DNA of 64,000 nt from Burkholderia metallica. Its GTDB lineage: Bacteria; Pseudomonadota; Gammaproteobacteria; Burkholderiales; Burkholderiaceae. Where the stretch lies: assembly GCF_902832845.1 (NCBI RefSeq), contig NZ_CADFDB010000002.1:124001-188000 (forward strand). The letters are read 5' to 3'. Shown piece after piece: positions 6,425 to 22,373 of this stretch. Every line of letters starts with the position of its first letter. Position 1 is the stretch's first letter. A model generated the notes under the pieces. That model made no database searches. It saw only the letters and a program-made list of their open reading frames with translations, and was not told the origin of the DNA. A program made the position numbers and the translations under genes.

Positions 6425-6725
6425 GTCGTCTCTCCTCAATCAATCATCCGGCGGGTCATGGCGCAGTGCGTTCGCCCCGATGGCCATCGAATGCAATCGA
6501 ACCGATGTGTCCGCCGATACGCTCCCGTGCGCTTCCATGTCGACGCGCGCACGCGCCGTTCGCTGCCTGTCGCGTCGAAATGGGCGGTGCCGTATCTCGA
6601 ATGCCGGAGTAGCCGGGAAGTCAGTCGTCCTGCTCCTTCATGCAGAACACGTGCTCGATGCACCCGGTTCGGGACGTGCATCGACTCTTTCGCTATCAAT
6701 GTAGGCGGACGCGCGAGTGGAGTCT

Positions 6726-6744
6726 GTCCGGCAACGTACCGGAC
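6726..6744. promoter_or_regulatory. palindrome, variant of the GGTACG-N4-CGTACC motif
   Basis: GTCCGG-N7-CCGGAC, containing CAACGTACCGG. It shares the CGTACCG half with the sites at 6814, 8513 and 21351 but has a different left arm. Confidence 0.4.
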
Positions 6745-6813
6745 GAGTGCGGATTATCGCGGACATCGGCGCAAATCATCGGCTTGCCGGTCCGAAGCGA
6801 CGCCAGCCGCCAC

Positions 6814-6829
6814 TGCACGGCATCGTACC
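6814..6829. promoter_or_regulatory. member of the recurrent CGTACC palindrome family
   Basis: TGCACGGCATCGTACC followed by GACTTCC. From CACGGCATCG through CGACTTCC it is base-for-base the same as the site at 8513-8528 upstream of the CsbD gene, apart from the first positions of the left arm. It lies 164 bp before the 6994 start codon. Confidence 0.5.
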
Positions 6830-6993
6830 GACTTCCGCTGTTCGCTCGTCCATTCTGGGTCGGCACGCGCGCATGCGCTGCCGATGCCGATACGCGTTCG
6901 GCGCCACAACGCGCCGACACATTGCCGATGGTCTCGCCGCGATCCGGTTCTAGCGGCCGGATCCATGCGAAGCGGCATTCACCGGAGAAGCTC

Positions 6994-7200
6994 ATGAACG
7001 ACCTGACTCGGAAAGCCCGCGGCACGCCGCAACAGCATCGGAAATATGCGCAAGATACCGCGACCGATGACGGAATGCCCATTGCCCCCGAAAAGCCGAG
7101 GCTGACGAACCCGAACGCGCGCGAGCAACCGCGCACTGCGGAGCAAAAGCGTTCCGACGCGAGCCCGCGTCCGGGAACGGCATGCCGATCGGCTCGATAG
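6994..7200 (+). CDS. small hydrophilic hypothetical protein
   Basis: A 68-residue highly charged protein starting MNDLTRKARGTPQQHRKYAQ, rich in Arg, Lys, Pro and Gln and probably disordered. GGAGAAG stands just upstream of the ATG. No family is recognised. Its low-complexity hydrophilic composition is similar to that of the 59-residue protein at 10143, and both belong to the cluster of very small proteins in this block. The upstream region holds two palindromic sites. The gene is supported by its ribosome-binding site and start, not by a known homologue. Confidence 0.5.
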   Translation: MNDLTRKARGTPQQHRKYAQDTATDDGMPIAPEKPRLTNPNAREQPRTAEQKRSDASPRPGTACRSAR

Positions 7201-7544
7201 CGCATGCAGCCCGCTTCAGCCACCACGCGCTCAGGGTCGTGCGATGCGGCGGCCAACGCCCGTCAACGGGCGGCAGGGTGCCCTCGTTGCGCTCCGGAGC
7301 GTGAAGATGGCGCGGTCGGCCCGCGCCTATGTCCGGGGCAATACCGTCAGATTCCACGCATGGCTCGATAGCCTGGAGCGTCGCACGTTACCGGAACCCC
7401 CCCCGGTCCGGATTGGCGGCAACTGCCACGCAGGCAATCCGGGCCCCGTCGCGAACGCTCAGGGGCACGTCGACAGTCGATGATCGCGGGCGCCGCCCGC
7501 GAGGTTCGTCACCTGCATTTTCGCGAGAGGCTCGGTTCAGTGGT
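7201..7544. other. 344-bp gap without a recognised gene
   Basis: Lies between the convergent ends of the 6994 gene and the DUF3096 gene. Only short GC-rich inverted repeats are seen (for example GCCCGTCAACGGGC near 7258); nothing else is supported. Confidence 0.5.
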
Positions 7545-7691
7545 TCAGTGGAGATGTCCTCCGAACAGCCCGAGCAACCCGATGACGATGAGGTAGATCG
7601 CCACGATGTAATTCAACAGACGGGGCACCACCAGAATCAGAATGCCGGCGATCAGCGAAACCAGTGGGCCCGCGCTCGTGAGAATGTGCAT
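7545..7691 (-). CDS. DUF3096 small membrane protein
   Basis: A 48-residue protein with two hydrophobic helices: SAGPLVSLIAGILILVVPRL and LNYIVAIYLIVIGLLGLFG. The core 'LVSLIAGILIL..PRLLNYIVAIYLI..G..GL' is the DUF3096 signature; the function of the family is unknown. GGAGGGG lies four bases before the ATG. It is too short for many gene callers. It sits 62 bp downstream of the YSC84-like gene on the same strand and may be cotranscribed with it. Confidence 0.85.
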   Translation of the reverse strand: MHILTSAGPLVSLIAGILILVVPRLLNYIVAIYLIVIGLLGLFGGHLH

Positions 7692-7753
7692 ACGCCCCTC
7701 CGCAAGAATGAAAACAACCAATGGAGACCAAGCCGCCCCGCGTCCGCCGCTCG

Positions 7754-8341
7754 TTACAGCGACTTGAGCCGGGTGATCTTCGTGCCTTCCAGCGTCACGC
7801 CGGCCATCAATCCGTTGTTCGTCAGTACGAATGCTTCGATCGGCGCGGTCGCGGTGCTGGTGTCGACATTGCCGTTCGCGCCGACTTTCAGTACTGCCAC
7901 CGACGCGTCGCCGCCCACCGACCAGCCTTCGCTGTTACGGAAGCGACCAAGCGCATCCTCGGTCATGAACAGGAAAATGATGGCTTTCGATTGCGCACCG
8001 ATCTGCAGGCCGATCGAGCCGGTCGTGGTGCTGTAGTAACCGACCGTGCTGCCGGCAACGCGCAGCGAGCCTTCGCCGTACTGGCCGCCGACGAAGAAGC
8101 CGGCCGCGATGACCGACGGGAATACCAGCACGCCGCGCGCCTTGCCGACGAGTTCACGCGAGCCTTTGGCGGTCGTGTAAAGGCGTGCGAGGGTCGAGTC
8201 GACGCCAGCATCGATGGTGTGGCGCTTGTCGGTCTGGTGACCACTGGCGTCGGATGTACCGGTCGTCGTGCATCCCGAGACCGCGAGGCCGATAGCCAGG
8301 ATCGATCCCGGCGTACCCCATAGAAATGTTCGTCGCTGCAT
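7754..8341 (-). CDS. YSC84/SYLF-domain lipoprotein
   Basis: A 195-residue protein with a lipoprotein signal peptide ending in the lipobox LAVSGC (Cys at about 24), so it is predicted to be lipid-anchored in the envelope. The mature part matches the SYLF (Ysc84 actin-binding-like) family: SRELVGKARGVLVFPSVIAAGFFVGGQYGEG.. followed by GYYSTTTGSIGLQIGAQSKAIIFLFMT and a GGDASVAVL segment. SYLF domains bind phospholipids in eukaryotes; the bacterial role is unclear, and the usual names are 'lipid-binding SYLF' or 'BPSL1445-like'. A perfect palindrome lies 59 bp upstream of the ATG (8401-8416). Confidence 0.9.
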   Translation of the reverse strand: MQRRTFLWGTPGSILAIGLAVSGCTTTGTSDASGHQTDKRHTIDAGVDSTLARLYTTAKGSRELVGKARGVLVFPSVIAAGFFVGGQYGEGSLRVAGSTVGYYSTTTGSIGLQIGAQSKAIIFLFMTEDALGRFRNSEGWSVGGDASVAVLKVGANGNVDTSTATAPIEAFVLTNNGLMAGVTLEGTKITRLKSL

Positions 8342-8400
8342 GATTCACCCCAGGTTGTTCGTGGATACCCCTGACGCTACACACAGGCGAATGCGAATGC

Positions 8401-8416
8401 GGTACGAAAGCGTACC
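8401..8416. promoter_or_regulatory. perfect-arm palindrome GGTACG-N4-CGTACC
   Basis: GGTACGAAAGCGTACC, 59 bp upstream of the YSC84-like start on the minus strand and about 245 bp upstream of the CsbD gene on the plus strand. The arms are identical to those at 21351-21366. Confidence 0.6.
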
Positions 8417-8512
8417 AAGCCTGCAAAAACAGACAACCTTCTCAACCTGGCTTCGCGGCGATCGATGCAATCGCCGCCCGCATGCATACGCTGGCGCACC
8501 GGCGGCGATCCG

Positions 8513-8528
8513 CGTACGGCATCGTACC
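8513..8528. promoter_or_regulatory. palindrome CGTACG-N4-CGTACC upstream of csbD-like gene
   Basis: CGTACGGCATCGTACC followed by GA, ending 133 bp before the CsbD-like start. The slipin gene has its copy 134 bp before its start, a strikingly similar placement. A further half-site (TTCGTACCGATC, 8619-8630) lies nearer to the gene. Confidence 0.55.
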
Positions 8529-8661
8529 GACTTCCATCGCGATTGCGCTCAGTGTGTCTTCGGGCGCACCGGTTGTTCCGCGTAAAGCGCCCGATACGAC
8601 GCTTCGATGGTTCCAGGTTTCGTACCGATCAAGCAGGCGACCCATGTCAAGGAGCAGTGTG

Positions 8662-8838
8662 ATGAACAGGGATCAGGTGAGAGGCCGCATCGCGGAAGCG
8701 AAAGGCAGACTGAAGGAAATGGTCGGCAGGATCATGGGAAATCGATCGACCAGAATGCAGGGCACGGTCGAGCAGGTCGTCGGAAAGACACAAGCGTCAT
8801 TCGGTGACGCGAAAGAGCAATTCAGGAAGCGGCCGTAG
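8662..8838 (+). CDS. CsbD-like stress protein
   Basis: A 58-residue helical, charged protein starting MNRDQVRGRIAEAKGRLKEM and continuing with an EGKI-type repeat (MQGTVEQVVGKTQASFGDAK). This is the pattern of the CsbD family, small stress-induced proteins of unknown mechanism (CsbD in Bacillus is sigma-B dependent; YjbJ in E. coli is abundant in stationary phase). AAGGAG lies seven bases before the ATG. Upstream are a full palindrome and a half-site of the recurrent motif. It is slightly shorter than typical members (about 60-70). Confidence 0.9.
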   Translation: MNRDQVRGRIAEAKGRLKEMVGRIMGNRSTRMQGTVEQVVGKTQASFGDAKEQFRKRP

Positions 8839-8954
8839 GGGGTTCGCGCGAACGGTTCCGTAGCGCCGCGCGATCGGGCAACGTGATGCGGATTCACTGG
8901 ATGTTGACCGCGCGTGCAGGCAACATCCGGCGATACCCGCTTCCCGACTGACCG

Positions 8955-9290
8955 TCACGATGCCGCAATGCGTCGGGGGTGGTCGCCATGCGCAGCGGCA
9001 AGCGGCTTGTGCTGCTCGTTTCCCACGCCGGGAAAGAACGCGTCCCACGCGTCCCGGACACCTTTCGCCGCGGTCGCATCTGCGGTCGCATCCACTGCAT
9101 CGCCCGACTTGGCCGGATCGGAGCGCAAGCCTCGCCAGCGCGTAAAGGTAAGCATCGGCTTTTCCGTCCATTCGCCATCGCCAAACTTCGCAAACGCCGT
9201 GTTGCCGCTCACCAGTCGCACTTCATACCATCCGCCGCGAACGGGCGCGTATTGGTCCAGCGCAAACCATCGTGTAGATTGGGTTTTCAT
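8955..9290 (-). CDS. hypothetical protein
   Basis: A 111-residue protein beginning MKTQSTRWFALDQYAPVRGG; the N-terminal 55 residues look folded (aromatic- and Gly-rich, with WYEVRLVSGNTAFAKFGDGEW), whereas the C-terminal half is Ala- and Asp-rich. GAGG lies five bases before the ATG at 9290; an ATG directly before it (9293) is closer to the ribosome-binding site. No domain is recognised. It is separated by 69 bp from another minus-strand small gene upstream and may form an operon with it. Confidence 0.6.
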   Translation of the reverse strand: MKTQSTRWFALDQYAPVRGGWYEVRLVSGNTAFAKFGDGEWTEKPMLTFTRWRGLRSDPAKSGDAVDATADATAAKGVRDAWDAFFPGVGNEQHKPLAAAHGDHPRRIAAS

Positions 9291-9359
9291 CATTGCCTCA
9301 TGGATCCATGAATCGTTGTGCAGGACAAAATCCGGTCTCGCCTGGTCGACGCATGCGCG

Positions 9360-9554
9360 CTAGTCCGCACACCGATTCAGCCACAGACGGCCTGCCGCCG
9401 TCATGTTGATCGAACCGCCGGTGCGCGACTCGTATGCAAGCCCGTGAGCCAATAGTTCAGCGGCTATGGCGCGTGGAATATCAGCCTGGGAATCCGGAAT
9501 TCGATCAAGCGATTTGAGGGTCTCGACGACCTCGAGTGAAAGTGGGATGCACAT
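9360..9554 (-). CDS. small hypothetical protein, winged-helix-like
   Basis: A 64-residue protein beginning MCIPLSLEVVETLKSLDRIP. GAGGAGG six bases before the ATG fixes this start, although the frame stays open further upstream. The pattern 'IAAELLAHGLAYESRTGGSINMTAAGRLWL' (a helix ending in a glycine turn, then a Gly-flanked strand and T..G) resembles the recognition helix and wing of a winged helix-turn-helix. The 73-residue protein at 39610 has the same skeleton, so they may be distant relatives. DNA binding is a guess. Confidence 0.6.
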   Translation of the reverse strand: MCIPLSLEVVETLKSLDRIPDSQADIPRAIAAELLAHGLAYESRTGGSINMTAAGRLWLNRCAD

Positions 9555-9817
9555 GGCGGCCTCCTCGGTGTTGAGTTCATCGTGAACCGGAAGACGCGCG
9601 TCGGTCTGTACGGTATCGACTATTTGGAAGCAGATTCTTCCGCAACCGCACCGCAACCCGGTGATTGACCCGCATTGAAAATATGATTCGGCATCCGATA
9701 TTGTTATTGCGAAACCATGGTCGAGCGCGCACACTGAAGATACCTGCCGGTTTGTTGCCAAGGCATCGGCGCCCTTGAATCCTTCGGCGCCAACCGTTGC
9801 TCTGTCAGGAGCAAATC

Positions 9818-10090
9818 ATGACCATCCCCACGCTCGAATATCGCGGACATGAACTCCGCGTCTATTCACAAATGCTTTTCCCGCCGTTCGGCGATCCCCA
9901 CGCTCCCGGCCCGAGGCGTTTTGCTTCAATCGTGCGCATCGACACGATTCCGGCTACCTCCGCAACGGCACCGCGTTACTCGACCATTTTCGAGCATGGC
10001 GCTCCGCAAACGGCGGCGCTCGCACTCGACCTAGCGATGCAATTCGGCAAGGACATCGTGGACGGCAAGATCGCCCCTGCGGCGATCTGA
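9818..10090 (+). CDS. hypothetical protein
   Basis: A 90-residue protein beginning MTIPTLEYRGHELRVYSQML, chosen because AGGAG stands seven bases before the ATG at 9818 (a TTG at 9797 has no such support). The opening 'YRGHELRVYS' recalls the 'YRGHEIRV' opening of the 80-residue protein at 54638, so the two may belong to related small families. No known domain. It is divergent from the 9554 gene across a 263-bp gap and is followed 52 bp later by another small gene. Confidence 0.6.
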   Translation: MTIPTLEYRGHELRVYSQMLFPPFGDPHAPGPRRFASIVRIDTIPATSATAPRYSTIFEHGAPQTAALALDLAMQFGKDIVDGKIAPAAI

Positions 10091-10142
10091 TTCGTCCGCC
10101 GCATCCGGCCCGACGCGAGCACACCTCACTCAGGAGCAATCC

Positions 10143-10322
10143 ATGAAATATCACTCAGGCACCTCAATCGATCGGCGCGATGACGCGACCCGGAAAAAGC
10201 AGCGGGATGATCTGGCCCGTGCCGACGTCGAACGCGCCGAAAAGCGCATTCGCCAGGATGCCGGCATCAATTCCAATGCAAGCAAGTGGCGTTATTCGCA
10301 CCCAGACAATCGGGCGAGATGA
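10143..10322 (+). CDS. very small hydrophilic hypothetical protein
   Basis: A 59-residue, strongly charged protein starting MKYHSGTSIDRRDDATRKKQ, likely helical across the Arg/Asp/Glu/Lys-rich middle and too short for common length cut-offs. AGGAG is seven bases before the ATG, the same spacing as the preceding gene, and the 52-bp gap suggests one transcript with it. No family is recognised. Confidence 0.5.
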   Translation: MKYHSGTSIDRRDDATRKKQRDDLARADVERAEKRIRQDAGINSNASKWRYSHPDNRAR

Positions 10323-10386
10323 GCGGCGCTTGCGCCGCACACTGTGGCATGCCGGTCCCGCATGGCGGGTCACCGGCGTGCCGGGA

Positions 10387-11568
10387 TCACGCATACTGGC
10401 GCAGGCGCATCGAGAAATCGGCAATCGCCTTGATACCGCTCTGCTCCGCGCAACGGCACCAATCCTGCAACTGAACCAGCAATTGCTCGTGCGACGCGTG
10501 CGACCACGTCCATAGCTCGAGCAACGCCTCGTACATATCGACGTACACGCGCATTCGCCGATTGGCATTGGGGCTCGTCAGCGCCCGCAGATCGGGCTTG
10601 CCTCGATGGCCCCAGGCCTGGCGCAGCCAGCGTTTCATGGCGAGCGCGAACGCGCGCTTGTCGTCGCGGCTCATGTCCTTCATGCGGCGCAGTTCCCGCC
10701 GGCAGGCGGGTTCGAGCATGCGCGCATAGGCGGCCATCACCGCATGGCGGTTGCGGATAACCGCTTGCAGCGTTGCATCGTCGACCACTGCCTTGTTCGG
10801 AAGCAGGCGCGGCTTCGTTGCGAGTCGCCGAACGGTCGCCAGTCTCAACGCCGCCAGCAGGCGGATGTACAGCCAGCCGATGTCGAACTCGAACCATCGG
10901 TTCGACAGCCTCGCGGACGTCACGTATGCGTGGTGATTGTTATGCAGTTCTTCCCCGCCGATCAGGATGCCCAGCGGGAAAATGTTGGTGCTCGCATCGA
11001 GCGTCGCAAAATTCCGATAACCGCTGAAGTGGCCGCAACCGTTGACTACGCCGCCGGCCCAGAACGGAATCCACATCATCTGGATCGCCCACGCCGCCAC
11101 GCCGGGGAGCCCGAACAGCCCGACGTCGATCACGGCGAGCAGCCCGACGCCGAGATTCGGATAGCGGGCATAGACGTGGCGTTCGAGCCAGTCGTCGGGC
11201 GTACCCGATCCAAACCGGCGCAGCGTCTCCTCGTTCCGCACTGCCTCCCGGTACAGTTCCGCGCCGCGAAGCAGCACGGTCGCGAGGCCACGGGTTCGCG
11301 GGCTATGCGGATCCTCCGGGGTCTCGCTTCTCGCGTGATGCTTGCGATGCACCGCGACCCACTGCAGGGTCAGCATGCCGGTCGTCAACCACAGCCAGAA
11401 CCGGAAGAAGTGGCTGACGCACGGGCGCAGATCCAGCGCCCGATGCGCCTGACAGCGGTGCAGGTACACGGTCACGCTGATGATGGTGACATGCGTGAGC
11501 ACGAACACGACCCCCGCAAGCTGCCACCAGGACAGCCTCAGCTCGCCGTTCAGGAGAAATGCCGACAT
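10387..11568 (-). CDS. membrane fatty-acid desaturase
   Basis: A 393-residue membrane protein carrying the three histidine boxes of the acyl-lipid/acyl-CoA desaturase family, which bind the di-iron centre: HRCQAH, HRKHHA and HNNHH, separated by hydrophobic segments in the usual order. These enzymes use O2 to place double bonds in acyl chains and so adjust membrane fluidity. The C-terminal 150 residues after the last box are hydrophilic and longer than in minimal members. The ATG at 11568 has CCGGAG about ten bases upstream; a GTG at 11589 is an alternative. In this block the gene fits an envelope-adaptation role. Confidence 0.9.
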   Translation of the reverse strand: MSAFLLNGELRLSWWQLAGVVFVLTHVTIISVTVYLHRCQAHRALDLRPCVSHFFRFWLWLTTGMLTLQWVAVHRKHHARSETPEDPHSPRTRGLATVLLRGAELYREAVRNEETLRRFGSGTPDDWLERHVYARYPNLGVGLLAVIDVGLFGLPGVAAWAIQMMWIPFWAGGVVNGCGHFSGYRNFATLDASTNIFPLGILIGGEELHNNHHAYVTSARLSNRWFEFDIGWLYIRLLAALRLATVRRLATKPRLLPNKAVVDDATLQAVIRNRHAVMAAYARMLEPACRRELRRMKDMSRDDKRAFALAMKRWLRQAWGHRGKPDLRALTSPNANRRMRVYVDMYEALLELWTWSHASHEQLLVQLQDWCRCAEQSGIKAIADFSMRLRQYA

Positions 11569-11656
11569 ACCGGTCGCACTCCGGGTCACGCATGTATCCG
11601 CGCGCGCTTCGCCGCGACGGCGAGTGCGCGTGCCGATTCCCTACCCGTCGGCCGGC

Positions 11657-11875
11657 CTATTTCCCGACCTGGTTGCCGACAACGCCGCCGACGGCCGCGC
11701 CGCCCACCGTGCCCAACGCACTGCCGCCCGTCAGGACCGCGCCGGCGACGCCACCGACACCCGCCCCGATCACGGTATCCGTTCCGCGGCGAGACATACC
11801 GCCGCAACCCGCCAGCACGACGATCGTCAATGTGACGATCGCCATCTCGACTGCCATGGAATGTAGCTTTCTCAT
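11657..11875 (-). CDS. glycine-zipper lipoprotein (OsmB-like)
   Basis: A 72-residue protein with a signal peptide ending in the lipobox VVLAGC and a mature part consisting almost wholly of glycine-zipper repeats (GAGVGGVAGAVLTGGSALG, then VGGAAVGGVVGNQVG). It is a predicted outer-membrane lipoprotein of the OsmB/glycine-zipper class. The ATG at 11875 has GAGGGG six bases upstream; an ATG two codons earlier overlaps that site. A CGTACCGG half-site lies about 130 bp upstream (12008-12015). Confidence 0.85.
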   Translation of the reverse strand: MRKLHSMAVEMAIVTLTIVVLAGCGGMSRRGTDTVIGAGVGGVAGAVLTGGSALGTVGGAAVGGVVGNQVGK

Positions 11876-12036
11876 GATCATCCCCTCGGGTTGCCGCCGC
11901 GCCGTCCGATCCGGCACGACGCACGGAAGCCCATGCGCTGACATCCCGATGAAATTCGGGACGTCGGTTCATGATGGGCGGTGAATCGCGCGCAGTCCGT
12001 CCGCTAACGTACCGGCCCGGATGCCGCCCCGTCGCC

Positions 12037-15000
12037 TCACAGAAGCACCGCTTGCGCCGCCCCCAGCGTCACGACCACGCTGTGACGCCGACCGTCGTCC
12101 ACGAGTCGCACCATCGCTTCTCCGGCGGCGAGCCGCACGCCATCCACGACGAGGCGGGACACGCCGCCGCTGACGTCGTCCGGATTCTCGACGACGATGT
12201 CGTAGTGCGACGCCCCGTGGCGCAGCGTTGCCCTGAAGCCCGGCCAGGATCGCGGTATGCACGGTTGAATGGACAGCATGTCGCCATGCCTGCGCAGGCC
12301 GAGCAGGCCTTCGATGCCCGCACGATATAGCCAGCCCGCCGAGCCGGTGTACCAGGTCCATCCGCCACGGCCGACATGCGGCGCGACCGAATAGACGTCG
12401 GCCGCGACCACGTATGGTTCCACCCGATAACGATTCGCGCCGCTGCGCGTGCGGCTGCGATTGACCGGATTGAGCAGCGCGAACAGCTTCGCGGCGCGAT
12501 CTCCGTCACCCATTTGCGCAAACGCAAGCACCGACCACGTGGCCGCATGCGTGTACTGGCCGCCGTTTTCCCGGATGCCCGGCGGATAACCCTTGATATA
12601 GCCGGGATCGACCGGCGATCGATCGAACGGCGGCGCAAACAGCAATGCCAAGCCATCGTCGCGGCGGATCAGCCGCGCTTCCAGCGCGTCCATTGCCTGC
12701 GCGGCGCGCGCCGGGTCCGCCGCGCCCGACAGCACGCTCCACGACTGCGCGATCGCGTCGATCGCACATTCGGCGTTGCCGGCCGAGCCGAGCGGTGTAC
12801 CGTCGTCGAAGTAGCCACGCCGATACCAACCGCCATCCCACCCCGCATCGGCAAGCGCATCGCGCAACGCGCCGGCGCGCGTCAGCCAGCGCGCCGCCAG
12901 TTCGCCCGCGCCGCGCGCCGTGGCGAGCGGGGCGAACGCCGTGAGCGTCGCATGCAGGAACCACCCGAGCCAGACGCTTTCGCCCCGCCCGGCCTCGCCG
13001 ACCCGGTTCATGCCGTCGTTCCAGTCGCCCGTGCCGATCAGCGGCAGGCCATGCTCGCCGACCTGCGCGAGACTCGACTCCAGCCCGCGCACGCAATGGT
13101 CGAACAGCGACGCGCTCGTTTCCGAGACGCGCGGGATGAAGAACGCGTCGTGCTCGTCGGCGGCCAGCGGTCGCCCGTCGATGAACGGGATCGACGCATC
13201 GAGAATCGCGCGGTCGCCGCTGACATCGACGTAGTGCGCAACCGCATGGGCGAGCCAGACGCGATCGTCGGAGATCCGCGTGCGTACGCCGCTGCCGCTT
13301 TCGGGCAGCCACCAGTGCTGCATGTCGCCCTCGGGAAACTGGCGCGCCGCCGCCCGCAACAGATGCTCGCGCGTCAGGGCCGGGCGGGCGACCGTGAGCG
13401 CCATGCCGTCCTGCAGCTGGTCGCGAAAACCGTACGCGCCGCTCGCCTGATAGAAGCCCGCACGCGCCCAGATCCGGCACGACAGCGTCTGGTACAGCAG
13501 CCAGCGATTCAGCATCAGATCCATCGCGCGATCGGGCGTTTCGACCTGAACGGCGCCGAGCGTCTCGTCCCAGAACGCCGTCACGGCGGCGAATATCGCG
13601 TCGAGATCCGCCTGACGGTAATGCGCGATCAACTGTCGCGCCGCTGCCGCATCGGCGCCTTCGCCGAGCAGCAAGACGATTTCGACGCTGCCGCCGGGTT
13701 CGAGATCGACCGTGGTCTGCAACGCGGCACACGGGTCGAGCCCGGCGCCGACGCGGCCCGACAACGGCGACGCGCCGGCGCTGCCCGGAAAACCGGCGGG
13801 ATCGCTCAGGACGCCATTGCGGCCGATGAACTCGCGCCGGTCCGCGCTCCACGAGGTTTGCAGGCCGCATAAATCGGCGAACGCCACGCTGCCGCGATAC
13901 ACCTGACTCCAGTCGTTGCGGGCAAACAGCGCGCCGGTCGGCGGATCGATCTCGCTCGCGGTGTGGGGCGCCGCGACGCTGCGCGGCGCCCCCAGCGCCC
14001 ACTCCGCATAGGTGGCGACGGACAGCCGGCGGCGCCGACTCGACAGGTTGCGCAACGTCAGCCGGGAAATCTTGACAGGATCGGCCAGCGGCACGAACTG
14101 CAGCAACTCGACGGCGACGTCGGCGGCGGAATGCGCAAACCGGCTGTAGCCCTGGCCATGACTCGCCACGAAAGCGCTCGCGCTCGGCGCGTCGTCGCCG
14201 ATCGAACCCGCCTGCGGTCCCCAGCGCACGCCCGTCTCGTCGTCGCGGATGTAGAACACTTCGCTCGGCGGATCGGTGACCGGGTCGTTCGACCACGGCG
14301 TCAGCGGATGCTCGCGGCTGTTCGTCACCCAGGTATAGCCGCCCCCCTCCACCGATGTCAGGAAGCCGCACGACGGATTCGCGACGACGTTGACCCACGG
14401 CATCGGCGTGCATTGACCGGGCTGCAGGATCACGACGTATTCGCGGCCGCCGCGCGCGAAACCGCCGATGCCGTTGAAGTATTCGAGACCGGCGCCGGCC
14501 TGTGCGCCCTTCGGTGACGGATTCGCAGGCGGCAGCAGCGGCGGGCTCGCGGCATCCGGGCGCGCGGGCAGCGGCGACGCCCCGAGGCGCCGCAATTGAT
14601 CCACCAGCCGGCCGTTGCGCGCGGCAAGCACGGCCCGCGCAACCGCCGGAAACAGCGCGCGCGCCGCCACCGCCATCAGGTCCTCGCGCAGCACGAAAAT
14701 ACTGCCGCGTCCGGCTTCGCCCGGCGGCTGCCGGGGCCGCACCAGCCCCTCGAGCGCCGCCTGCAAATCCTGCACATACGACGCCGCGCGCTCGTTGATG
14801 ATGACCAGATCGACCTCGAGCCGCTTCATCCGCCAGTACTCGTGCGCGCGAATCAACTGCCGCACCATGGCGACGTGCTCGATGTCGTCGATCCGGACCA
14901 GCAGTATCGGCAGATCCCCCGATACGCCATGCGTCCATAACGGCGACGCGCCCACGCCTCCCGCCGCCGATACCGCCGCCGCATGGCGCAGCAGCGCCGC

Positions 15001-18000
15001 GGAGCCCGGCCGCATCGACGCATCGCTGTAGAGCATGTATCCGGCCAGCTGCTGGAACAACGCGGCCTCGTCGAGGCTCACCGCGCTGTGCCGCAGCTGC
15101 ACCTGCGCCTGGGTCCACGCGAGCATCGCCGCACGCGCGAACGATTCGCCGTCGCGATGCTTGTCGACCAGATCGAGCAACTGCGTGCGCGAATCCGCGA
15201 CGATGGTCCAGTAGACGATGCTCGCCTTCGCGCCCGGCTCGATGCGCAGTTGCCGCCGCAACGTGAACGCCGCGTCCAGCACCGCGCCTTCGGAAGCGCT
15301 CAGCGCACGCCGTTCGGTCAGCGCAAGCGGCAAGCGAACGCTGCGTCCGCGTCCGATGACACGCAATCGATCGGTATCGAATTCTTCCGCGCCGACGGTT
15401 TCGCCGACAGTCACCGCCAGATGAGCGGCCCAAACCTCCGCCTCGTTCGGCGCGCGCTTGCGGCGCGTCGCCAGGATGGCGCCGGATGCCGGCATGTACT
15501 CGGTCTCGATGAACAGCTTCGAGAATGCAGGATGCGCGTGATCGGCGGCGGCCGGCGCGAGCACGATTTCCGCGTACGACGTGAATTCGATCACGCGCGG
15601 CCGGGTGCCCGTGTTGGCTACCGACACTCGACGCACCTCTGCGTCGTCCTCGGCGGATACCACCACCTCGAGCGACGTCGTCAAGGTGCCGTCGCGACGC
15701 ACGAACTCGGCGCGATCCTCGGTGAACGTCACGTCGTAGCTGTCCGGTACCACGCCAGTGGGCTGCCATGTGGCCGACCAGACGTCACCGCTCTCGGCGT
15801 CTCGCAGATACAGATAGCTGCCCCAATCGTCGCGCGTCGCGTCCTCCCGCCAGCGCGTAACGGCCAGATCGTCGCGACGGCTGTAGCCGGACCCCGCGGC
15901 CGTGAGCATCACGGCATAGCGGCCGTTGGACAGCAGATGCGTGACGGGGGCGGGATCGTTCGCGGACAGCAGGCGCCGCGCCACGCCGGCATCGATCCCA
16001 TGCATCCTGCCGGCGGGGCGCGTGTCGACCCGCGGCCGCCCTGCCGCGACCCGGCCCGGCACCCGCTCCTGCAACAGCAGCTCGGTGGCTCGAACGGCCG
16101 GTTCCGCATGGAAGAAGGTGCGAATGCGCCCGCCCAGCAACGCATTGGCGATCGCCACGATCGACATGCCCTGGTGATGCGCCATGAACGCCTGCACGAT
16201 GGCAACCGGCACACCTTCCGGCACGCGTGCGGGCGTATAGTCGAGCGCTTCGTAGAAGCCGAAGCGCCCGCACGCGCCGGCCGTGCGCAGCCGTTCGAAG
16301 TTGCACGCGGCGGCATGCGGCGCGACCATCGCCGCCAGCGCGGTCGCATAGGGCGCGACCACCAGATTCTGGTCGAGATCGCGCTTGAGCCCCAGCTCCG
16401 GCACGCCGAAGCTCGAATACTGATAGGTCAGCTCGATGTCGCGCGTGTTGTACGCCGACTCGGACATGCCCCACGGCAGCCGCAGCCCGTCGCCGTAGGC
16501 GATCTGCCGACGTACCACCAGATGGTTGGTCCGCGCGAGCAGGCTGCTGTCCGGCGCGCGCATCACGAGCGACGGCATCAGGTATTCGAACATCGATCCC
16601 GACCACGAGACCAGCGCGGCGCCGTGCCCGATCGGCGTCGCCAGGCGGCCGAGCCGGAACCAGTGGCGCGCCGGGACATCCCCTTTCGCGATCGCGACGA
16701 AGCTCGCCAGGCGAGCCTCCGACGCCAGCAGGTCGTAGTTGCCCGGATCGCGCTGGCCGTCGGCCACGGCATAGCCGATCGAAAGCAGGTTCCGCACCGG
16801 GTCGAGCAGAAAGCCGAACTCCATCGCATAGGCCATCTGCAACGCGGAATCGGCCAGCACCTGAAGACGCTTGTTCAGCACGTCCGCTTCGTCCGGCGTG
16901 CGCGTCGCGTCACGACAATGCCCTTGCACCCCATGCTCCAGCGCCTGCGCCCAGAACAGCACGTCGTCGACGTCGCCGCCCCGCACCCGGCCGACCTCGT
17001 CCATCAGCGCGCGCGCGACGTCGGCGACTGTCGCAGCGAGGATCGTGATCGCGTTCCATTCCGTCGCGGCGCGGCCATCCGTCGCGGCGAGCGTGTCCTC
17101 CAGTTCGGTCGCGGCCCGCTCGAATTCACCGTGCAAGGCCGTCCGGACGTCGCCATTTCGGCACACGGCCTTGCGCAACAGCGCCAGCGTATCGCCGATC
17201 CCTTCATGCGCGGCCTGCCGTCCCACGCCAGCGGGCTGATTCGCCCACGCCCGGCAACCGTTGCCGAGCGCGATCAGGTGCCCGGCGAGATTGCCGCTGT
17301 CGACCGACGATACATACCGCGGCTCGAGAGGCCGCAGGTCGCGCGTGTCGTACCAGTTGTAGAAATGGCCCCGATAGCGCGACATCAGCCGCATCGTCGC
17401 GAGCGTCGCCTCCAGCCGCGACACCGCGTCCTGCGTGCCGAGCCAGCCGAACTCGCGGGCGCTGACGACGGACAACAGGTACAGCCCGATATTGGTGGGC
17501 GAAGTCCGGCGCGCACAAACGGGCTTCGGGTCCTCCTGGAAATTGTCCGGCGGCAGCATCTGATCGTCCGCCGTCACGAACGTCTCGAAATAACGCCAGG
17601 TCCGGCGCGCGTCGAGCCGCAGTTGACGCGCATCGTGCGGGGTCACCGCCAGTTCGCCCGCCGGCCGTGGTGCACGGCTCAGCCAATACGCGATCGCCGG
17701 CGCGGCGAGCCAGACGAGTGCGAACGGCACGGCCAGCCAGCCCGTATGACGATCGAAGCGCCAGCCCGCCGTCAGGCTGGCAGCCGCAGCAAGCAGCGCG
17801 AGCGTCACGCCGCCGCGCATTTGCAGATAGGTGGACGCGAGGGTCCGCCGGTCGCGCGCGCCCGCTGCGGCCGCTGTCGTCCATTCGAGCAGGTGGCGAC
17901 GGCTGATCCCCAAGCGAAACAGCGTACGCGCGATCGCGTCGCCCATCGACCACGCCTGCTGCGGCAGCATGACGATCGACAGGCCGAACCGCGTCAACGC

Positions 18001-20721
18001 GAAGCGCAGCTCCATCGACCACGCATGGAGCACGCTGCGCGTCGTCATCCTGACATGCGTGCGCCGCCAGCGCGGCACCAGTCCGCTCAATACGGGCAAC
18101 AGGAACGGCAGCGCGATCATCACCAGCACGAAGGCGCTCCAGCCCAGCGATACGGGGAGCGGCTGCATCCATCCGGCCAGTAGCGCGATCAGCATGGCGG
18201 GCGCCGTGAGCGTGCGGCGCAGGTTGTCCAGCATCTTCCAGCGGCCGACCGCCGTCAGCCGTTCATGGCCGGAAATCAACCAAGGCAGGAGCTGCCAGTC
18301 CCCGCGCGCCCACCGGTGCAGGCGTCCCGCCGCGACGTCGTAGCGGGACGGCGACGCTTCGACGACCTCGACATCCGACGCCAGCCCGGCCCGCGCGAAA
18401 ATGCCTTCGAACAGATCGTGACTGAGCACCGTGTTCTCCGGCACGCGGCCGGCGAGCACCGCCTCGAACGCGTCGACGTCGTAGATGCCCTTGCCCGCAT
18501 AGGAGCCTTCGTCGAACAGATCCTGGTAGACATCCGATACGGCCGACACGTAGGGATCGATGCCGTGCGCGCTCGACGACACGCGCTGGAACAGCGACCC
18601 CTCGTCACCGCTTGCGAGGGACGACGTGACGCGCGGCTGAAGCACGCCGTAGCCTTCGACGATGCGCCGGCTCGCCAAATCGAATACCGGCCGGTTGAGC
18701 GGGTGCGCCATCTTGCCGATCAGGCGGCGCACAGTATCGCGCAGCAACCGCGTATCGGCATCGAGCGTGATCACGTAGCGCACGTCAGGCGGCACGCGCG
18801 GCGGCCTGCCTGCCAGCGAGATGAATGTCGTGTCCGACGCCCCGCGCAGCAACCGGTTCAGCTCGTGCAGCTTGCCGCGCTTGCGCTCCCAGCCCATCCA
18901 GCACCGTTCGCCGTCGTTCCACACGCGCTTGCGGTGCAGCAGCAGAAAGCGCTCGCCCTCGCCCGGCGCCGCCGGATAAAGGCGATTCAACCGGTCGATA
19001 CCCGCCACCGCGGATGCCAGCAGCCCGTCGTCGCTGTCCGCGTGCGGGGTGGGCGCGTCCACCCAGTCGGAGAGCAAGGCGAAGTAAAGCGCGCCGTCAG
19101 GGCTCGCCAGGTGATGAATTTCCAGTTGCTCGATCTGCTCGCCGAGCGCCGCTTCCGTCGTCAGCAGCACCGGCACGGCGACCATCGTGCGCAGGCCCGG
19201 CGGAATGCCGTCGAGCAAGGCGAGGCCGGGCAGGATCTTCGCACCGACATCGCGCATCACGCTGCGATTGACGAGCGCGACCGCGGTATCCAGCGCGGGT
19301 AGCAGGCCGGCGACGCCGAGCCAGATCAACCAGTGACCGGGTGGCTCGATGCGAGTGAGCCACGCCAGCATGGCCGTGAGCAGCAGTGCCGCAATCAGCC
19401 CGATACGGCCGAGATAGCCGCCGAGACCGGCGTGGCGCGTCAGGCGCCGTAACCACAACGCAACGGGCGGCCGATAGCCGATCTCCGCCTCGAACGCGGT
19501 GCGGCCGTCCGCCAGCAGGTAGTAACCGGGGTCTGTCTCGCGGGCCGGCACCGCGCCGGCGGCCGGCACGCGGCTCGCCCCTTGCGCCGCTGCATCGGCG
19601 ACGACGCGGCGGGCAATCTCGAGTTCGCTGACGGGCGCGCCGCGGGCAAGCGCTTCCACCGCGTCGCGATACAGGTTGCGCGTGGGGAAATCCATCTCCG
19701 CGAAGCCCGGATGGCTGCGCAGCACCTGATCGACCAGGCTGATGCGCTCGAACAGATCGGTCCAGTCCACTTCCGAAATCAGCCGCATGCTGGTGATCAC
19801 GTTGCGCACGGTCAGGCTGGCGGCGCCCTGCTGATGGTTGACGGAGGCGACGATCTGGTCCGGCGTCGCGCCGCGCGCCGCCAAGTGCCGATGCAGCCAC
19901 GCCAGCGCCGGCGCGACGGCCGGATCGGGATCATGCAGCCGCTGAATCAGTTGCACCGCGAACGCATCGTGCAATACGGCCTGCTCATAACGGGCGACGA
20001 GCGGCTCCGTTTCCACCCGTGCCTGCCCGCGTTCGCCGAGCAGGCGATCCGCGAGCGCGTCGGCGTCGAGTCGCGCGTGCCGATCGTCGATGATCTGGTC
20101 CGCGAGCCGCCGCAGGTTTTCGATCAAGACGATCCGCAGCGTGATCGCCACTGCCCACAGTTCGCCGATCGTCAGCGGTTCCACCGCCTGATAGGCGAGC
20201 ATGAAGCGGCACAGCATATCGGGATCGAAACGGCTGTCCGTATGGGCGACGAATGACCAGTTGATCTCGAATACGCGCGGATACCCGGCAAACGGCCCAT
20301 TGCCGAGCTTGGGCAGTTGCCGGTAATAGCGCGGGGAAAGATCGTCGCGGATCTGCCGCACCTGCTCCGCGACGAGATAGTAGTTGTCGAGCAGCCACTC
20401 CGCTGCCGGCGTGATTTCCTCGCCGCGCGCATCTGCGGCCACCGTATTCCGGTACGCCTTCAGCAGATGATCCGCGTTGTCCTTCAGCCGCGTCGCCAGA
20501 GACGGGCCAGAGGGCGCCCCGGGAAGTACCTTCTGCGCACGCGCCAGACTGCCCGCATGCTGCGCAAGCCGTTCATCGCCGAAGAACTCCTCGCGAATCG
20601 GCCGTGCATTGCTCCATGGCGATGTCCGGCGTCGCGAAACACGCGCAACGTGAATCTTCAACGCACCTTCTCCCAATGACCGCACCACCCGTCCGGCGTC
20701 ATACGCTGTGCGTCGCACCAT
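12037..20721 (-). CDS. ndvB: cyclic beta-1,2-glucan synthase (GT84-GH94)
   Basis: A 2,894-residue giant inner-membrane enzyme, the usual size for NdvB/ChvB. It makes beta-1,2-linked glucan on a protein-bound primer and cyclises it; the cyclic products act in the periplasm in osmoadaptation and host interaction. Order of domains: a soluble N-terminal region; hydrophobic segments near residues 430-490, 850-890 and 980-1010; a family 84 glycosyltransferase region with YVITLDADTR near residue 650; a glycoamylase-like domain around 1480-1550 (IVQAFMAHHQGMSIVAIANA); and two glycoside-phosphorylase-type parts, with the GH94 catalytic motif GTGDWNDGMNRVG near 2560. The start is ATG 20721, which overlaps the stop of the HicB-like gene in TGATG, arguing for translational coupling. 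Long open frames on the other strand are composition artefacts. Confidence 0.95.
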   Translation of the reverse strand: MVRRTAYDAGRVVRSLGEGALKIHVARVSRRRTSPWSNARPIREEFFGDERLAQHAGSLARAQKVLPGAPSGPSLATRLKDNADHLLKAYRNTVAADARGEEITPAAEWLLDNYYLVAEQVRQIRDDLSPRYYRQLPKLGNGPFAGYPRVFEINWSFVAHTDSRFDPDMLCRFMLAYQAVEPLTIGELWAVAITLRIVLIENLRRLADQIIDDRHARLDADALADRLLGERGQARVETEPLVARYEQAVLHDAFAVQLIQRLHDPDPAVAPALAWLHRHLAARGATPDQIVASVNHQQGAASLTVRNVITSMRLISEVDWTDLFERISLVDQVLRSHPGFAEMDFPTRNLYRDAVEALARGAPVSELEIARRVVADAAAQGASRVPAAGAVPARETDPGYYLLADGRTAFEAEIGYRPPVALWLRRLTRHAGLGGYLGRIGLIAALLLTAMLAWLTRIEPPGHWLIWLGVAGLLPALDTAVALVNRSVMRDVGAKILPGLALLDGIPPGLRTMVAVPVLLTTEAALGEQIEQLEIHHLASPDGALYFALLSDWVDAPTPHADSDDGLLASAVAGIDRLNRLYPAAPGEGERFLLLHRKRVWNDGERCWMGWERKRGKLHELNRLLRGASDTTFISLAGRPPRVPPDVRYVITLDADTRLLRDTVRRLIGKMAHPLNRPVFDLASRRIVEGYGVLQPRVTSSLASGDEGSLFQRVSSSAHGIDPYVSAVSDVYQDLFDEGSYAGKGIYDVDAFEAVLAGRVPENTVLSHDLFEGIFARAGLASDVEVVEASPSRYDVAAGRLHRWARGDWQLLPWLISGHERLTAVGRWKMLDNLRRTLTAPAMLIALLAGWMQPLPVSLGWSAFVLVMIALPFLLPVLSGLVPRWRRTHVRMTTRSVLHAWSMELRFALTRFGLSIVMLPQQAWSMGDAIARTLFRLGISRRHLLEWTTAAAAGARDRRTLASTYLQMRGGVTLALLAAAASLTAGWRFDRHTGWLAVPFALVWLAAPAIAYWLSRAPRPAGELAVTPHDARQLRLDARRTWRYFETFVTADDQMLPPDNFQEDPKPVCARRTSPTNIGLYLLSVVSAREFGWLGTQDAVSRLEATLATMRLMSRYRGHFYNWYDTRDLRPLEPRYVSSVDSGNLAGHLIALGNGCRAWANQPAGVGRQAAHEGIGDTLALLRKAVCRNGDVRTALHGEFERAATELEDTLAATDGRAATEWNAITILAATVADVARALMDEVGRVRGGDVDDVLFWAQALEHGVQGHCRDATRTPDEADVLNKRLQVLADSALQMAYAMEFGFLLDPVRNLLSIGYAVADGQRDPGNYDLLASEARLASFVAIAKGDVPARHWFRLGRLATPIGHGAALVSWSGSMFEYLMPSLVMRAPDSSLLARTNHLVVRRQIAYGDGLRLPWGMSESAYNTRDIELTYQYSSFGVPELGLKRDLDQNLVVAPYATALAAMVAPHAAACNFERLRTAGACGRFGFYEALDYTPARVPEGVPVAIVQAFMAHHQGMSIVAIANALLGGRIRTFFHAEPAVRATELLLQERVPGRVAAGRPRVDTRPAGRMHGIDAGVARRLLSANDPAPVTHLLSNGRYAVMLTAAGSGYSRRDDLAVTRWREDATRDDWGSYLYLRDAESGDVWSATWQPTGVVPDSYDVTFTEDRAEFVRRDGTLTTSLEVVVSAEDDAEVRRVSVANTGTRPRVIEFTSYAEIVLAPAAADHAHPAFSKLFIETEYMPASGAILATRRKRAPNEAEVWAAHLAVTVGETVGAEEFDTDRLRVIGRGRSVRLPLALTERRALSASEGAVLDAAFTLRRQLRIEPGAKASIVYWTIVADSRTQLLDLVDKHRDGESFARAAMLAWTQAQVQLRHSAVSLDEAALFQQLAGYMLYSDASMRPGSAALLRHAAAVSAAGGVGASPLWTHGVSGDLPILLVRIDDIEHVAMVRQLIRAHEYWRMKRLEVDLVIINERAASYVQDLQAALEGLVRPRQPPGEAGRGSIFVLREDLMAVAARALFPAVARAVLAARNGRLVDQLRRLGASPLPARPDAASPPLLPPANPSPKGAQAGAGLEYFNGIGGFARGGREYVVILQPGQCTPMPWVNVVANPSCGFLTSVEGGGYTWVTNSREHPLTPWSNDPVTDPPSEVFYIRDDETGVRWGPQAGSIGDDAPSASAFVASHGQGYSRFAHSAADVAVELLQFVPLADPVKISRLTLRNLSSRRRRLSVATYAEWALGAPRSVAAPHTASEIDPPTGALFARNDWSQVYRGSVAFADLCGLQTSWSADRREFIGRNGVLSDPAGFPGSAGASPLSGRVGAGLDPCAALQTTVDLEPGGSVEIVLLLGEGADAAAARQLIAHYRQADLDAIFAAVTAFWDETLGAVQVETPDRAMDLMLNRWLLYQTLSCRIWARAGFYQASGAYGFRDQLQDGMALTVARPALTREHLLRAAARQFPEGDMQHWWLPESGSGVRTRISDDRVWLAHAVAHYVDVSGDRAILDASIPFIDGRPLAADEHDAFFIPRVSETSASLFDHCVRGLESSLAQVGEHGLPLIGTGDWNDGMNRVGEAGRGESVWLGWFLHATLTAFAPLATARGAGELAARWLTRAGALRDALADAGWDGGWYRRGYFDDGTPLGSAGNAECAIDAIAQSWSVLSGAADPARAAQAMDALEARLIRRDDGLALLFAPPFDRSPVDPGYIKGYPPGIRENGGQYTHAATWSVLAFAQMGDGDRAAKLFALLNPVNRSRTRSGANRYRVEPYVVAADVYSVAPHVGRGGWTWYTGSAGWLYRAGIEGLLGLRRHGDMLSIQPCIPRSWPGFRATLRHGASHYDIVVENPDDVSGGVSRLVVDGVRLAAGEAMVRLVDDGRRHSVVVTLGAAQAVLL

Positions 20722-21173
20722 CAACCCGCTTCCGACAGCGATTTCGCGACGGGTTCGAAACGCACGTCGCGATGCTGCGCGGATCGATCGGCGGCGTTCG
20801 CGCACGCCATCGACACGAACGCATCGCGAGTCATGCGCAGCGCGCTCGCCGTCATGTCGATGTCGCGCACGCTGCGCTTCGGCAGGCACAGCGCGATCCG
20901 CACGGAACTCGAGGTCACGCCGGTCAGGTCGATATCGAAGAACCGCCAGATTCCGTTACCCAGGTCGACATCCGACGCCTGCAATATCGCCATGTCCGTG
21001 GTCGGCGGCGGCACGAGACGCGCGGAGCGGTCATAGCAGGCCATGACCTGTCGCGCCGCAGCCGCCTGCAACTCGCCATACGAGTCACCTTCCACATCGA
21101 TTTCCGGAAAATCCGGAAGCGCGCCGCGATAGCGGGGATTCCCGTGATGCGTGATATAGACCGGATATTTCAT
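20721..21173 (-). CDS. HicB-like (type II antitoxin fold) protein
   Basis: A 150-residue protein starting MKYPVYITHHGNPRYRGALP, matching the HicB N-terminal fold: a short Tyr/Pro strand, then PDFPEIDVEGDSYGELQAAAARQV where HicB proteins have 'PD.PG....GDT.eEA...a'. The C-terminal part ends in MTASALRMTRDAFVSMACANAA, which could be a degenerate helix-turn-helix. GGGAG lies seven bases before the ATG. No HicA toxin gene is adjacent; instead the stop codon overlaps the ndvB start in TGATG. It may be a solitary HicB-fold regulator of glucan synthesis; this is inference. A CGTACCGAC half-site lies about 60 bp upstream. Confidence 0.75.
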   Translation of the reverse strand: MKYPVYITHHGNPRYRGALPDFPEIDVEGDSYGELQAAAARQVMACYDRSARLVPPPTTDMAILQASDVDLGNGIWRFFDIDLTGVTSSSVRIALCLPKRSVRDIDMTASALRMTRDAFVSMACANAADRSAQHRDVRFEPVAKSLSEAG

Positions 21174-21350
21174 GAACCGCTCCCGACAGAAAATGACGAC
21201 GAACGTCATCATGCGTTGCGGCGGCCTGACGAGTCGGTACGCTGAAGAACAGTCTGCGGGGCACGTTTCGTGGTGACCTGCCCGCCGTTCACACCCCGGA
21301 TCGCCCGATGCCTCGCCACCCGGTCAGTCAGGCACAACGCGCTCGATCGA

Positions 21351-21366
21351 GGTACGGCACCGTACC
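21351..21366. promoter_or_regulatory. perfect-arm palindrome GGTACG-N4-CGTACC upstream of slipin gene
   Basis: GGTACGGCACCGTACC followed by GATCGG, ending 134 bp before the slipin ATG. It is the best-conserved member of the motif family in this window. Confidence 0.6.
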
Positions 21367-21500
21367 GATCGGCACTGCAATGGCGCGCACACTCACATCA
21401 AGGGCCTCTGTCCCTGTTGCCAGAATGCCCAAGACAATCTGGATGCGGCGTGCTTCATCGCTCATCCGACAGGTCGTTGTCACCCAAACGGAGCCTCACC

Positions 21501-22373
21501 ATGAATCCCATCACACTCGTTTTATCGGCTGCGTTCGTCCTCGCGGCATTCGCCGTCGGCGCGTGGGGCTACCTGTATCTCGCGGTCTCCCTTTTTATCG
21601 TCGCGGTCCTGATCGCGTTGTCCGTGCGGGTCGCCAACGTCTGGGAAAAGTTCGTGATCCTTCGGATTGGCAAGTTGCAAAGCGTCAAGGGTGCCGGTTT
21701 CTTCATGATCATTCCAATCCTGGACAACGTTGTCGCGATCATCGACGAACGTATTCAAACCACCGCCTTCAACGCCGAACAAGCGCTGACCAAAGACACC
21801 GTTCCTGTCAACGTCGACGCCGTGATTTTCTGGCACGTCCATGACGCGCAGAAAGCCGCGCTCGCCATCACCGACTACCGGCAAGCCATTGACCGCGTTG
21901 CGCAAACCTCACTGCGGGAAATGATCGGGGCATCGATGCTGGCTGCATTGTTGTCGGATCGCAAGGCGGCCGACATGCACTTGCGCGACGAGATTGGCAG
22001 AAAGACCGTGGAATGGGGCGTGACTGTCCGCTCGGTCGAGACCCGCGATGTCGCGATCCCGGTCGCGCTGCAGGATTCGATGTCGCGGCAGGCGCAAGCC
22101 GAGCGCGAAAAGCAGGCACGGGTGATCCTCGGCTCGGCGGAGGCCGAAATCGCCGCCAAGTTCGTCGAAGCGTCGCAGGTCTACGAAAATCATCCGGGTG
22201 CGCTTCAGTTGCGGGCGATGAACATCATCTACGAAACGACGAAGGAACGCGGCGCGACGATCCTGATTCCCAGCGCGATGGTGGACAGCCTGAATCCCGT
22301 GCTCGCGCTTGCGATTGCCGGGCATGACGCGGCGGGCGCCGCGCCCGTGCCTTCGCTCAAGACAGCGGCGTAA
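21501..22373 (+). CDS. SPFH/band-7 (slipin-type) membrane protein
   Basis: A 290-residue protein with two adjacent N-terminal hydrophobic segments (residues 5-45) followed by an SPFH domain: VWEKFVILRIGKLQSVKGAG, an IIPILDNVVAIIDERIQT segment, TKDTVPVNVDAVIFWHVHD and a TSLREMIGASML motif. This is the slipin/stomatin pattern. Such proteins oligomerise on the membrane and organise microdomains or partner proteases. The C-terminal helix (SMSRQAQAEREKQARVILGSAEAEIAAK) is the expected coiled coil. GGAG lies eight bases before the ATG at 21501; the frame is open upstream but has no better start. It lacks an adjacent NfeD partner. It ends the stress-gene block. Confidence 0.9.
   Translation: MNPITLVLSAAFVLAAFAVGAWGYLYLAVSLFIVAVLIALSVRVANVWEKFVILRIGKLQSVKGAGFFMIIPILDNVVAIIDERIQTTAFNAEQALTKDTVPVNVDAVIFWHVHDAQKAALAITDYRQAIDRVAQTSLREMIGASMLAALLSDRKAADMHLRDEIGRKTVEWGVTVRSVETRDVAIPVALQDSMSRQAQAEREKQARVILGSAEAEIAAKFVEASQVYENHPGALQLRAMNIIYETTKERGATILIPSAMVDSLNPVLALAIAGHDAAGAAPVPSLKTAA

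Follow-up and report, generated by a model that had tools for sequence, protein, structure and literature searches.

The stretch of Burkholderia metallica DNA analyzed here (positions 124001-188000 of contig C2, 64,000 nucleotides of a 7.55-Mb genome in 37 contigs, G000; hereafter the window) carries repeated copies of a palindrome, GGTACG-N4-CGTACC, ahead of small genes with envelope or stress functions. Judged from sequence, this palindrome very probably serves as the operator for a switch that appears not to have been described before, the regulator of which would be a Crp/Fnr-family protein whose gene lies just beyond the window. The original prediction of a dedicated regulator binding a 16-bp operator is well supported by conserved, mostly intergenic sites and by their linkage to a regulator gene; the regulator itself, the -10-like element, and the cassette setting go beyond that prediction. 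The best candidate is the Crp/Fnr-family protein of G000:C2:120740-121456, a gene 2.5 kb to the left of the window, and this protein probably activates a group of small stress genes. We consider it likely that this protein binds the dyad, that it acts by class II activation, and that regulator and promoters form a mobile module.

Near-Exact Palindromes and Their Predicted Promoters

The operator consensus is (G/T/C)GTACG-N4-CGTACC, a 16-bp dyad. The window holds two sites without mismatch, one with a single mismatch (8513) and four with two (6725, 6814, 11998, and 40566), while 100 Markov-resampled windows gave means of 0.01, 0.12, and 2.65 for these classes and never contained more than one site with 0-1 mismatch. 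The perfect-arm copies previously claimed at 8401-8416 and 21351-21366 were both found where predicted, as were the one-mismatch copy at 8513-8528, the two-mismatch copy at 6814-6829, and the 133 and 134 bp said to separate two copies from their start codons, distances that recur in the related cassette L029. Other claims needed correction. A variant placed at 6726-6744 is a genuine two-mismatch site, but its coordinates are 6725-6740; a supposed half-site near 12008 is actually a full two-mismatch site at 11998-12013; and another, at 21234, is a three-mismatch site at 21236-21251, the 16 bases of which are identical in three relatives. At 8621, where a further half-site had been placed, no such palindrome exists; the position falls within a conserved segment of the csbD leader. 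The statement that the other 40 kb contain nothing comparable holds for 0-1 mismatches but not for two, given the site at 40566, which lacks the -10-like element described below at the expected place. Across the 7.55-Mb genome, exact GTACG-N4-CGTACC has 15 stranded matches in 10 places, five of which fall in the 26 kb of C2:119262-145366 (two of the five left of the window). Rfam returned no RNA-element match in the window. The predicted operators and their -10-like hexamers are as follows.

6725..6740, minus strand: operator, two mismatches, facing the DUF3309-type gene; TACATT at 6698-6703
6814..6829, plus strand: operator, two mismatches; CATTCT at 6851-6856
8401..8416, minus strand: operator, perfect arms, facing the SYLF/YSC84 gene; TAGCGT at 8374-8379
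8513..8528, plus strand: operator, one mismatch; CAGTGT at 8550-8555
11998..12013, minus strand: operator, two mismatches, facing the glycine-zipper gene; CATCAT at 11971-11976
21236..21251, minus strand: weak operator-like site, three mismatches, kept in L030, L031, and L033, upstream of the HicB-like/ndvB-like genes
21351..21366, plus strand: operator, perfect arms; CACACT at 21388-21393

A -10-like hexamer, YAnnnT, starts exactly 22 nt past the end of the palindrome, leaving a fixed gap of 21 bp. The window's own cassette has eight predicted promoters, namely the six with hexamers listed above and two of PRC-barrel genes in L017 (TACCGT and TAGCGT), and all eight are oriented toward a gene. 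Among unique sites with 0-1 mismatch, the hexamer stands at this spacing in 27/28 from Burkholderia cassettes and in 18/25 from 20 loci of the wider family (other genera), compared with 0-5 at other offsets from 5 to 59 in the same two sets. When two mismatches are allowed, the counts are 38/51 and 33/58, respectively. For 76 loci retrieved using the regulator protein they are 38/43, 99/117, and 151/238 for zero, up to one, and up to two mismatches; these results and the earlier ones are not independent, because the 76 loci share genomes with the 20-locus set. A minority of sites may use a spacing of 22, as found in 5/25 wider-family sites, e.g., in Pandoraea, and, read by eye, at 21236-21251 in the window, where YAnnnT lies one base more distant.

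A logo of 161 composites of palindrome and hexamer reads CGTACC-GAYTYC and G-YAnCGT, with G-A-C at -33 to -31. The -35 region, ccGACt at 17-bp spacing, suggests a weak sigma-70 promoter lying under the operator. If the hexamer is set as -12 to -7, the fixed 21-bp gap would place the palindrome centre at -41.5. This is the class II position of Crp/Fnr activators.

Co-Occurrence With a Crp/Fnr-Family Gene

The motif and the regulator subfamily co-occur and are linked across seven genera. Twenty loci (up to 20 kb) around close homologues of the candidate regulator (67-92% identity) contain 7 perfect and 18 one-mismatch sites, vs. 0 and 0.8 expected, and at least one site with 0-1 mismatch is present in 12 of them. 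Twenty loci of 20 kb around distant homologues (about 49-62%) have no near-exact site, with 0.4 expected. Among 65 Burkholderia genomes, 16 have a regulator copy of at least 85% identity and all 16 have the exact palindrome within 15 kb of it (read by eye); the palindrome occurs somewhere in 44 of the remaining 49, as chance allows. The zero-mismatch composite has 27 matches in 8 of the 16 regulator genomes vs. a single match among the other 49, in G025. That match, at G025:C4:158873-158915, is a perfect slipin-type composite promoter, an orphan target in a genome without a close regulator copy. The one-mismatch composite was rejected as a genome-wide test because the same few sequences recur in genomes that lack the regulator.

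In 299 sampled genomes of the family, with the composite defined as GTACG-N4-CGTACC-G-N20-YAnnnT and regulator presence as a copy at 77% identity or more, the exact composite was found in 34/45 genomes with the regulator vs. 13/254 without it (Fisher p about 1e-24, which takes no account of relatedness). The reversed pattern has five matches across all 299. For most of these genomes, the best nine regulator candidates per genome were scored; full re-scoring of the 13 exceptions revealed a truncated 83% copy in G321 only. Physical linkage is also close. In regulator-bearing genomes 83 of 96 composites lie within 50 kb of a copy, 50 of them within 5 kb. In the 9.7-Mb genome of P. xenovorans LB400, a non-pathogenic soil strain, each of the ten composites has one of the four regulator copies found there at a distance of between 67 bp and 16.5 kb, and nine of the ten on a 3.2-Mb B. 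cenocepacia replicon fall in one 45-kb stretch. Furthermore, an unbiased dyad search (5-bp arms, gaps of 2-10) ranked GTACG-N4-CGTAC first, in 55/76 loci, although its control was flawed, as the 5/31 positive control loci were among L019-L023, which had been chosen for holding the motif. Multiple regulator copies per genome are common: B. multivorans has two plain copies as well as a fusion (L031 10571-12340 and 26105-26824), and LB400 has the four mentioned above.

The Candidate Regulator and Its Recognition Helix

The candidate belongs to the Crp/Fnr family by matches to PF13545 (HTH_Crp_2; 52.6 bits, cut-off 27) and PF00027 (cNMP_binding; 33.0 bits, cut-off 27.5). Its predicted model (predicted local distance difference test score 76.7) matches FNR, CRP, and GlxR along the whole chain, with a beta-roll, a long dimer helix, and a winged helix-turn-helix. 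Solved structures gave only remote sequence matches (best E 1.4e-4), and the only curated family name returned was NtcA, far below its cut-off.

Aligned with GlxR, the recognition helix changes from SRETVNK to RRSGVTE, a sequence present in 14 of 16 aligned rows, with RRAGVTE in the other two (L129 and L146). The CRP/GlxR-type helix R-E-T-V-x-x-R/K is absent from the regulator. A sister clade, parted from the regulator clade by a 100/100 branch and lacking sites, has RREGVTEAAGK. Two close homologues are exceptions, one retaining the Glu (L054) and the other having lost an Arg (VGRSEVTEV, L043); sites with 0-1 mismatch are missing from both loci. The helix residue appears to track the presence of sites, a correlation and not proof.

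With respect to the signal, no Cys before C142 is invariant or nearly invariant in the 16 rows, hence there is no FNR-type N-terminal cluster. C142, C153, C219, and C221 are invariant in these rows and could, as a guess, be part of a sensor. The Glu of the GlxR cyclic AMP (cAMP) pocket (GEL) stands opposite a gap in the alignment, in a low-confidence region of the model. Neither a canonical cAMP pocket nor an FNR-type iron-sulfur cluster is evident in the regulator sequence.

A second protein of the family, in which an XRE-type HTH_3 domain is fused to a complete Crp/Fnr protein, is found in several Burkholderia cassettes (e.g., L017:12139-13164). It lies further left than the plain regulator here and is present in L029, L031, and L033 as well. 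This fusion was set aside as the regulator because it is rare in motif-bearing loci; it might add a further layer of control. A composite promoter in P. panacisoli lies 13 bp ahead of an open reading frame (ORF) for a different Crp/Fnr protein (L087:578-1399), hinting at a cascade.

Predicted Target Genes, Conservation, and Probable Mobile Setting

The genes that the window's sites face or flank are the following.

6266..6424, minus strand: predicted target, small DUF3309-type protein; coordinates transferred from L029 (19767-19925), 300 bp from its site
6994..7200, plus strand: predicted target, 68-aa protein without a Pfam or NCBIfam match
7545..7691, minus strand: DUF3096 small membrane protein, possibly on one transcript with the SYLF gene upstream of it
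7754..8341, minus strand: predicted target, SYLF/YSC84 lipoprotein (BPSL1445 family)
8662..8838, plus strand: predicted target, CsbD-like protein (PF05532)
11657..11881, minus strand: predicted target, glycine-zipper 2TM protein; coordinates transferred from L029
20721..21212, minus strand: HicB-like gene (PF15919)
21501..22373, plus strand: predicted target, slipin / SPFH-Band 7 protein (PF01145)

The inclusion of hicB/ndvB among the flanked genes in the original prediction stands only in part, the link being weaker than for the other genes. The HicB-like gene precedes a giant ORF (12037-20889, 2950 aa), labeled "glucoamylase family" in the annotation of relatives, and the two together are a possible weak target. 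No HicA partner is annotated next to the HicB-like gene in L029 or L031. In the csbD leader, CGATACGA faces TCGTACCG at 8592-8627, an imperfect dyad with a 20-nt loop that spans the supposed half-site at 8621; the stretch is mostly conserved in L030-L033 and could be a leader hairpin.

Across relatives, the 161 composites are spread over 61 of the 76 loci, and 81 have a cassette-type gene start within 400 bp: SYLF (27), CsbD (10), PRC-barrel (9), DUF3096 (5), AI-2E transporter (5), slipin (5), DUF3309 (3), and others. Some of these assignments may be wrong, given that any ORF in range was accepted. For the other 80 composites, 30 candidate genes were searched against Pfam, of which 23 matched and 7 did not. 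Pyridoxal phosphate (PLP)-dependent decarboxylase, acetyl-CoA synthetase, and Nramp were found three times each, DnaJ, aldehyde dehydrogenase, and PRC-barrel twice each, and alcohol dehydrogenase, phasin, glycogen-debranching, CBS, DUF3309, LPG-synthase-type, methyltransferase, and another Crp/Fnr protein once each. By these predicted assignments, the targets combine protection of the envelope and of proteins with fermentative or energy metabolism.

Orthologous promoters retain the sites. In eight orthologous groups, which include L031 and L033, near copies of each other, the arms are invariant at 95/96 positions, the spacer at 29/32, and the flanks at 802/1280, a count that favors the arms because each group was built from sites already located in its sequences. 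Preservation extends, with one exception, to the imperfect arms TGTCCG, CGTCCG, and TGCACG. The original prediction would have been refuted by a motif as common in coding sequence as upstream of genes, which was not the pattern seen: in L029, L031, and 15000-26500 of L032, which have coding fractions of 0.67-0.76, 17 of the 18 sites with 0-1 mismatch were intergenic (the remaining one is overlapped by a 46-aa hypothetical ORF annotated across the slipin promoter), as were 9 of 11 two-mismatch sites.

The setting appears to be mobile. Searched against plasmid records, the region matched a 225-kb plasmid of B. vietnamiensis at 98.3% identity. Matches of lower similarity came from plasmids of B. 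multivorans (116 kb) and B. pyrrocinia (880 kb) and from large replicons of B. cenocepacia and B. arboris, and a Caballeronia plasmid carries part of the region (SYLF, DUF3096). Three annotated Burkholderia records (L029, L031, and L032) have in common PRC-barrel, KefB-type antiporter, DUF3096, CsbD, desaturase, and glycine-zipper genes and at least one Crp/Fnr-family gene. DUF3309 is missing from L032, SYLF/YSC84 does not adjoin csbD in L031 and L032, and the giant glucan-synthase-like gene, HicB, and slipin are found in L029 and L031.

Activator, Repressor, or Repeat

In the proposed mechanism, a dimer of the regulator would bind the dyad and contact RNA polymerase as a class II activator, compensating for the poor -35 (ccGACt) and -10 elements. 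This would switch on SYLF, CsbD, DUF3309, PRC-barrel, glycine-zipper, slipin, and other envelope or stress genes. The genes switched on in relatives would further include those for DnaJ, Nramp, acetyl-CoA synthetase, aldehyde and alcohol dehydrogenase, PLP-decarboxylase, and phasin. The regulator would move together with its promoters, as one module, via plasmids and islands. We lean, with less assurance, toward the broader view that this is a portable, self-contained global stress regulon with a Crp/Fnr activator, the recognition helix of which was re-specified to read GGTACG-N4-CGTACC, with Ser where GlxR has Glu and an acidic residue where GlxR has Lys. Such a regulon would be insulated from the host CRP/FNR and would have recruited different stress and fermentative genes in at least seven genera.

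The same protein at the same operator might instead repress, by blocking access of RNA polymerase to the -35 region, and since the site overlaps that region, occlusion is also allowed. Repressors tolerate variable operator positions, though, and the base-exact gap together with poor -35 and -10 elements (ccGACt, YAnCGT) is as would be seen for polymerase contact, which makes repression improbable. We find it similarly doubtful that the dyad is bound by something else, either the XRE-Crp/Fnr fusion or a chromosomal factor. The fusion is present in the window's own cassette and in those of L029, L031, and L033, and has a related helix, but a strict N-terminus pattern finds it in 1/76 loci while 61/76 have composites; a chromosomal factor would leave the linkage to the regulator gene and the empty sister-clade loci unexplained. 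Near-identical dyads recurring in one region, two of them with CATCGTACCGACTTCC in common, might also suggest a repeated element (REP-like, or a recombination or methylation site) that spread with the cassette. Spacers and flanks vary between sites, however, while the arms and the -10 element at +21 are kept, there is one site per promoter, pointing at genes, and Rfam has no match, so that this explanation is very unlikely. Chance plus common ancestry of one island, to which we give almost no credence, draws on the three-mismatch count in the window, which is near expectation; the resampled windows never reached the observed number of near-exact sites, and the composite recurs with the regulator in other genera, before other genes.

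Several observations weigh against the Crp/Fnr reading as a whole. With up to three mismatches there is no clear enrichment in the window (42 sites vs. 33.8 expected, 42 being reached by 11/100 shuffles); only near-exact sites therefore carry signal, and three-mismatch matches, near chance level, were not used as evidence. Sites with 0-1 mismatch are missing from eight of the 20 close-homologue loci, 11 of the 45 regulator genomes have no exact composite, and 13 of the 254 genomes without the regulator have one. L017:11219 is a one-mismatch site without a -10 element. In the 76-locus set, the next-best offsets other than 22 reach 8/43, 18/117, and 23/238. The one-mismatch composite is unspecific, with matches in 43/65 Burkholderia genomes, several of them via identical recurring sequences. 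Moreover, the p-values overstate independence because loci and genomes are related, and the ortholog alignments began from sites already found in each sequence.

Relation to Known Systems and Significance

The CRP-type operator is TGTGA-N6-TCACA, unlike GGTACG-N4-CGTACC, and the regulator differs from CRP, GlxR, and Vfr in its operator and in its helix, RRSGVTE where GlxR has SRETVNK. FNR, ANR, and FixK2 have a different operator as well, and the regulator has no conserved Cys before residue 142 in the 16 aligned proteins. The sister clade of Burkholderiaceae Crp/Fnr proteins (helix LGVRREGVTEAAGKLH) is 49-62% identical to the regulator along the whole chain, but has Glu, at the position aligned with the GlxR Glu, where the regulator has Ser, and no near-exact site in its 20 loci. 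The locus of heat resistance, or transmissible locus of stress tolerance, of Enterobacteriaceae is a mobile envelope/stress block with a cation:proton antiporter. Such an antiporter is present in this cassette too, and the other genes are, as far as is known, different; we know of no dedicated Crp/Fnr operator system for that locus. A further possible likeness, one of description, is to the lxa locus of B. cenocepacia, a low-oxygen-activated, co-regulated block of about 50 stress genes (PMC9060813; lxa also PMC3759415). A search of the open-access literature, with regulon databases and subscription papers outside its scope, found neither motif nor regulator. GTACG/CGTAC matches in PMC5217627 are CRISPR-related, in Clostridium.

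A Crp/Fnr class II switch is already known as such; the operator and the portable regulon would be new. If the proposed reading is true, it would provide a regulator, an operator, and a promoter architecture for the SYLF, CsbD, DUF3309, DUF3096, PRC-barrel, glycine-zipper, and slipin genes, the roles and control of which are poorly understood. The two clades, one with Ser and the site, the other with Glu and no site, form a natural pair in which helix specificity is directly testable. It would also mean that a stress response orthogonal to the host CRP/FNR network travels among Burkholderia, Paraburkholderia, Trinickia, Caballeronia, Pandoraea, Ralstonia, and Cupriavidus, and that the motif could be used to locate its target genes in any of these genomes.
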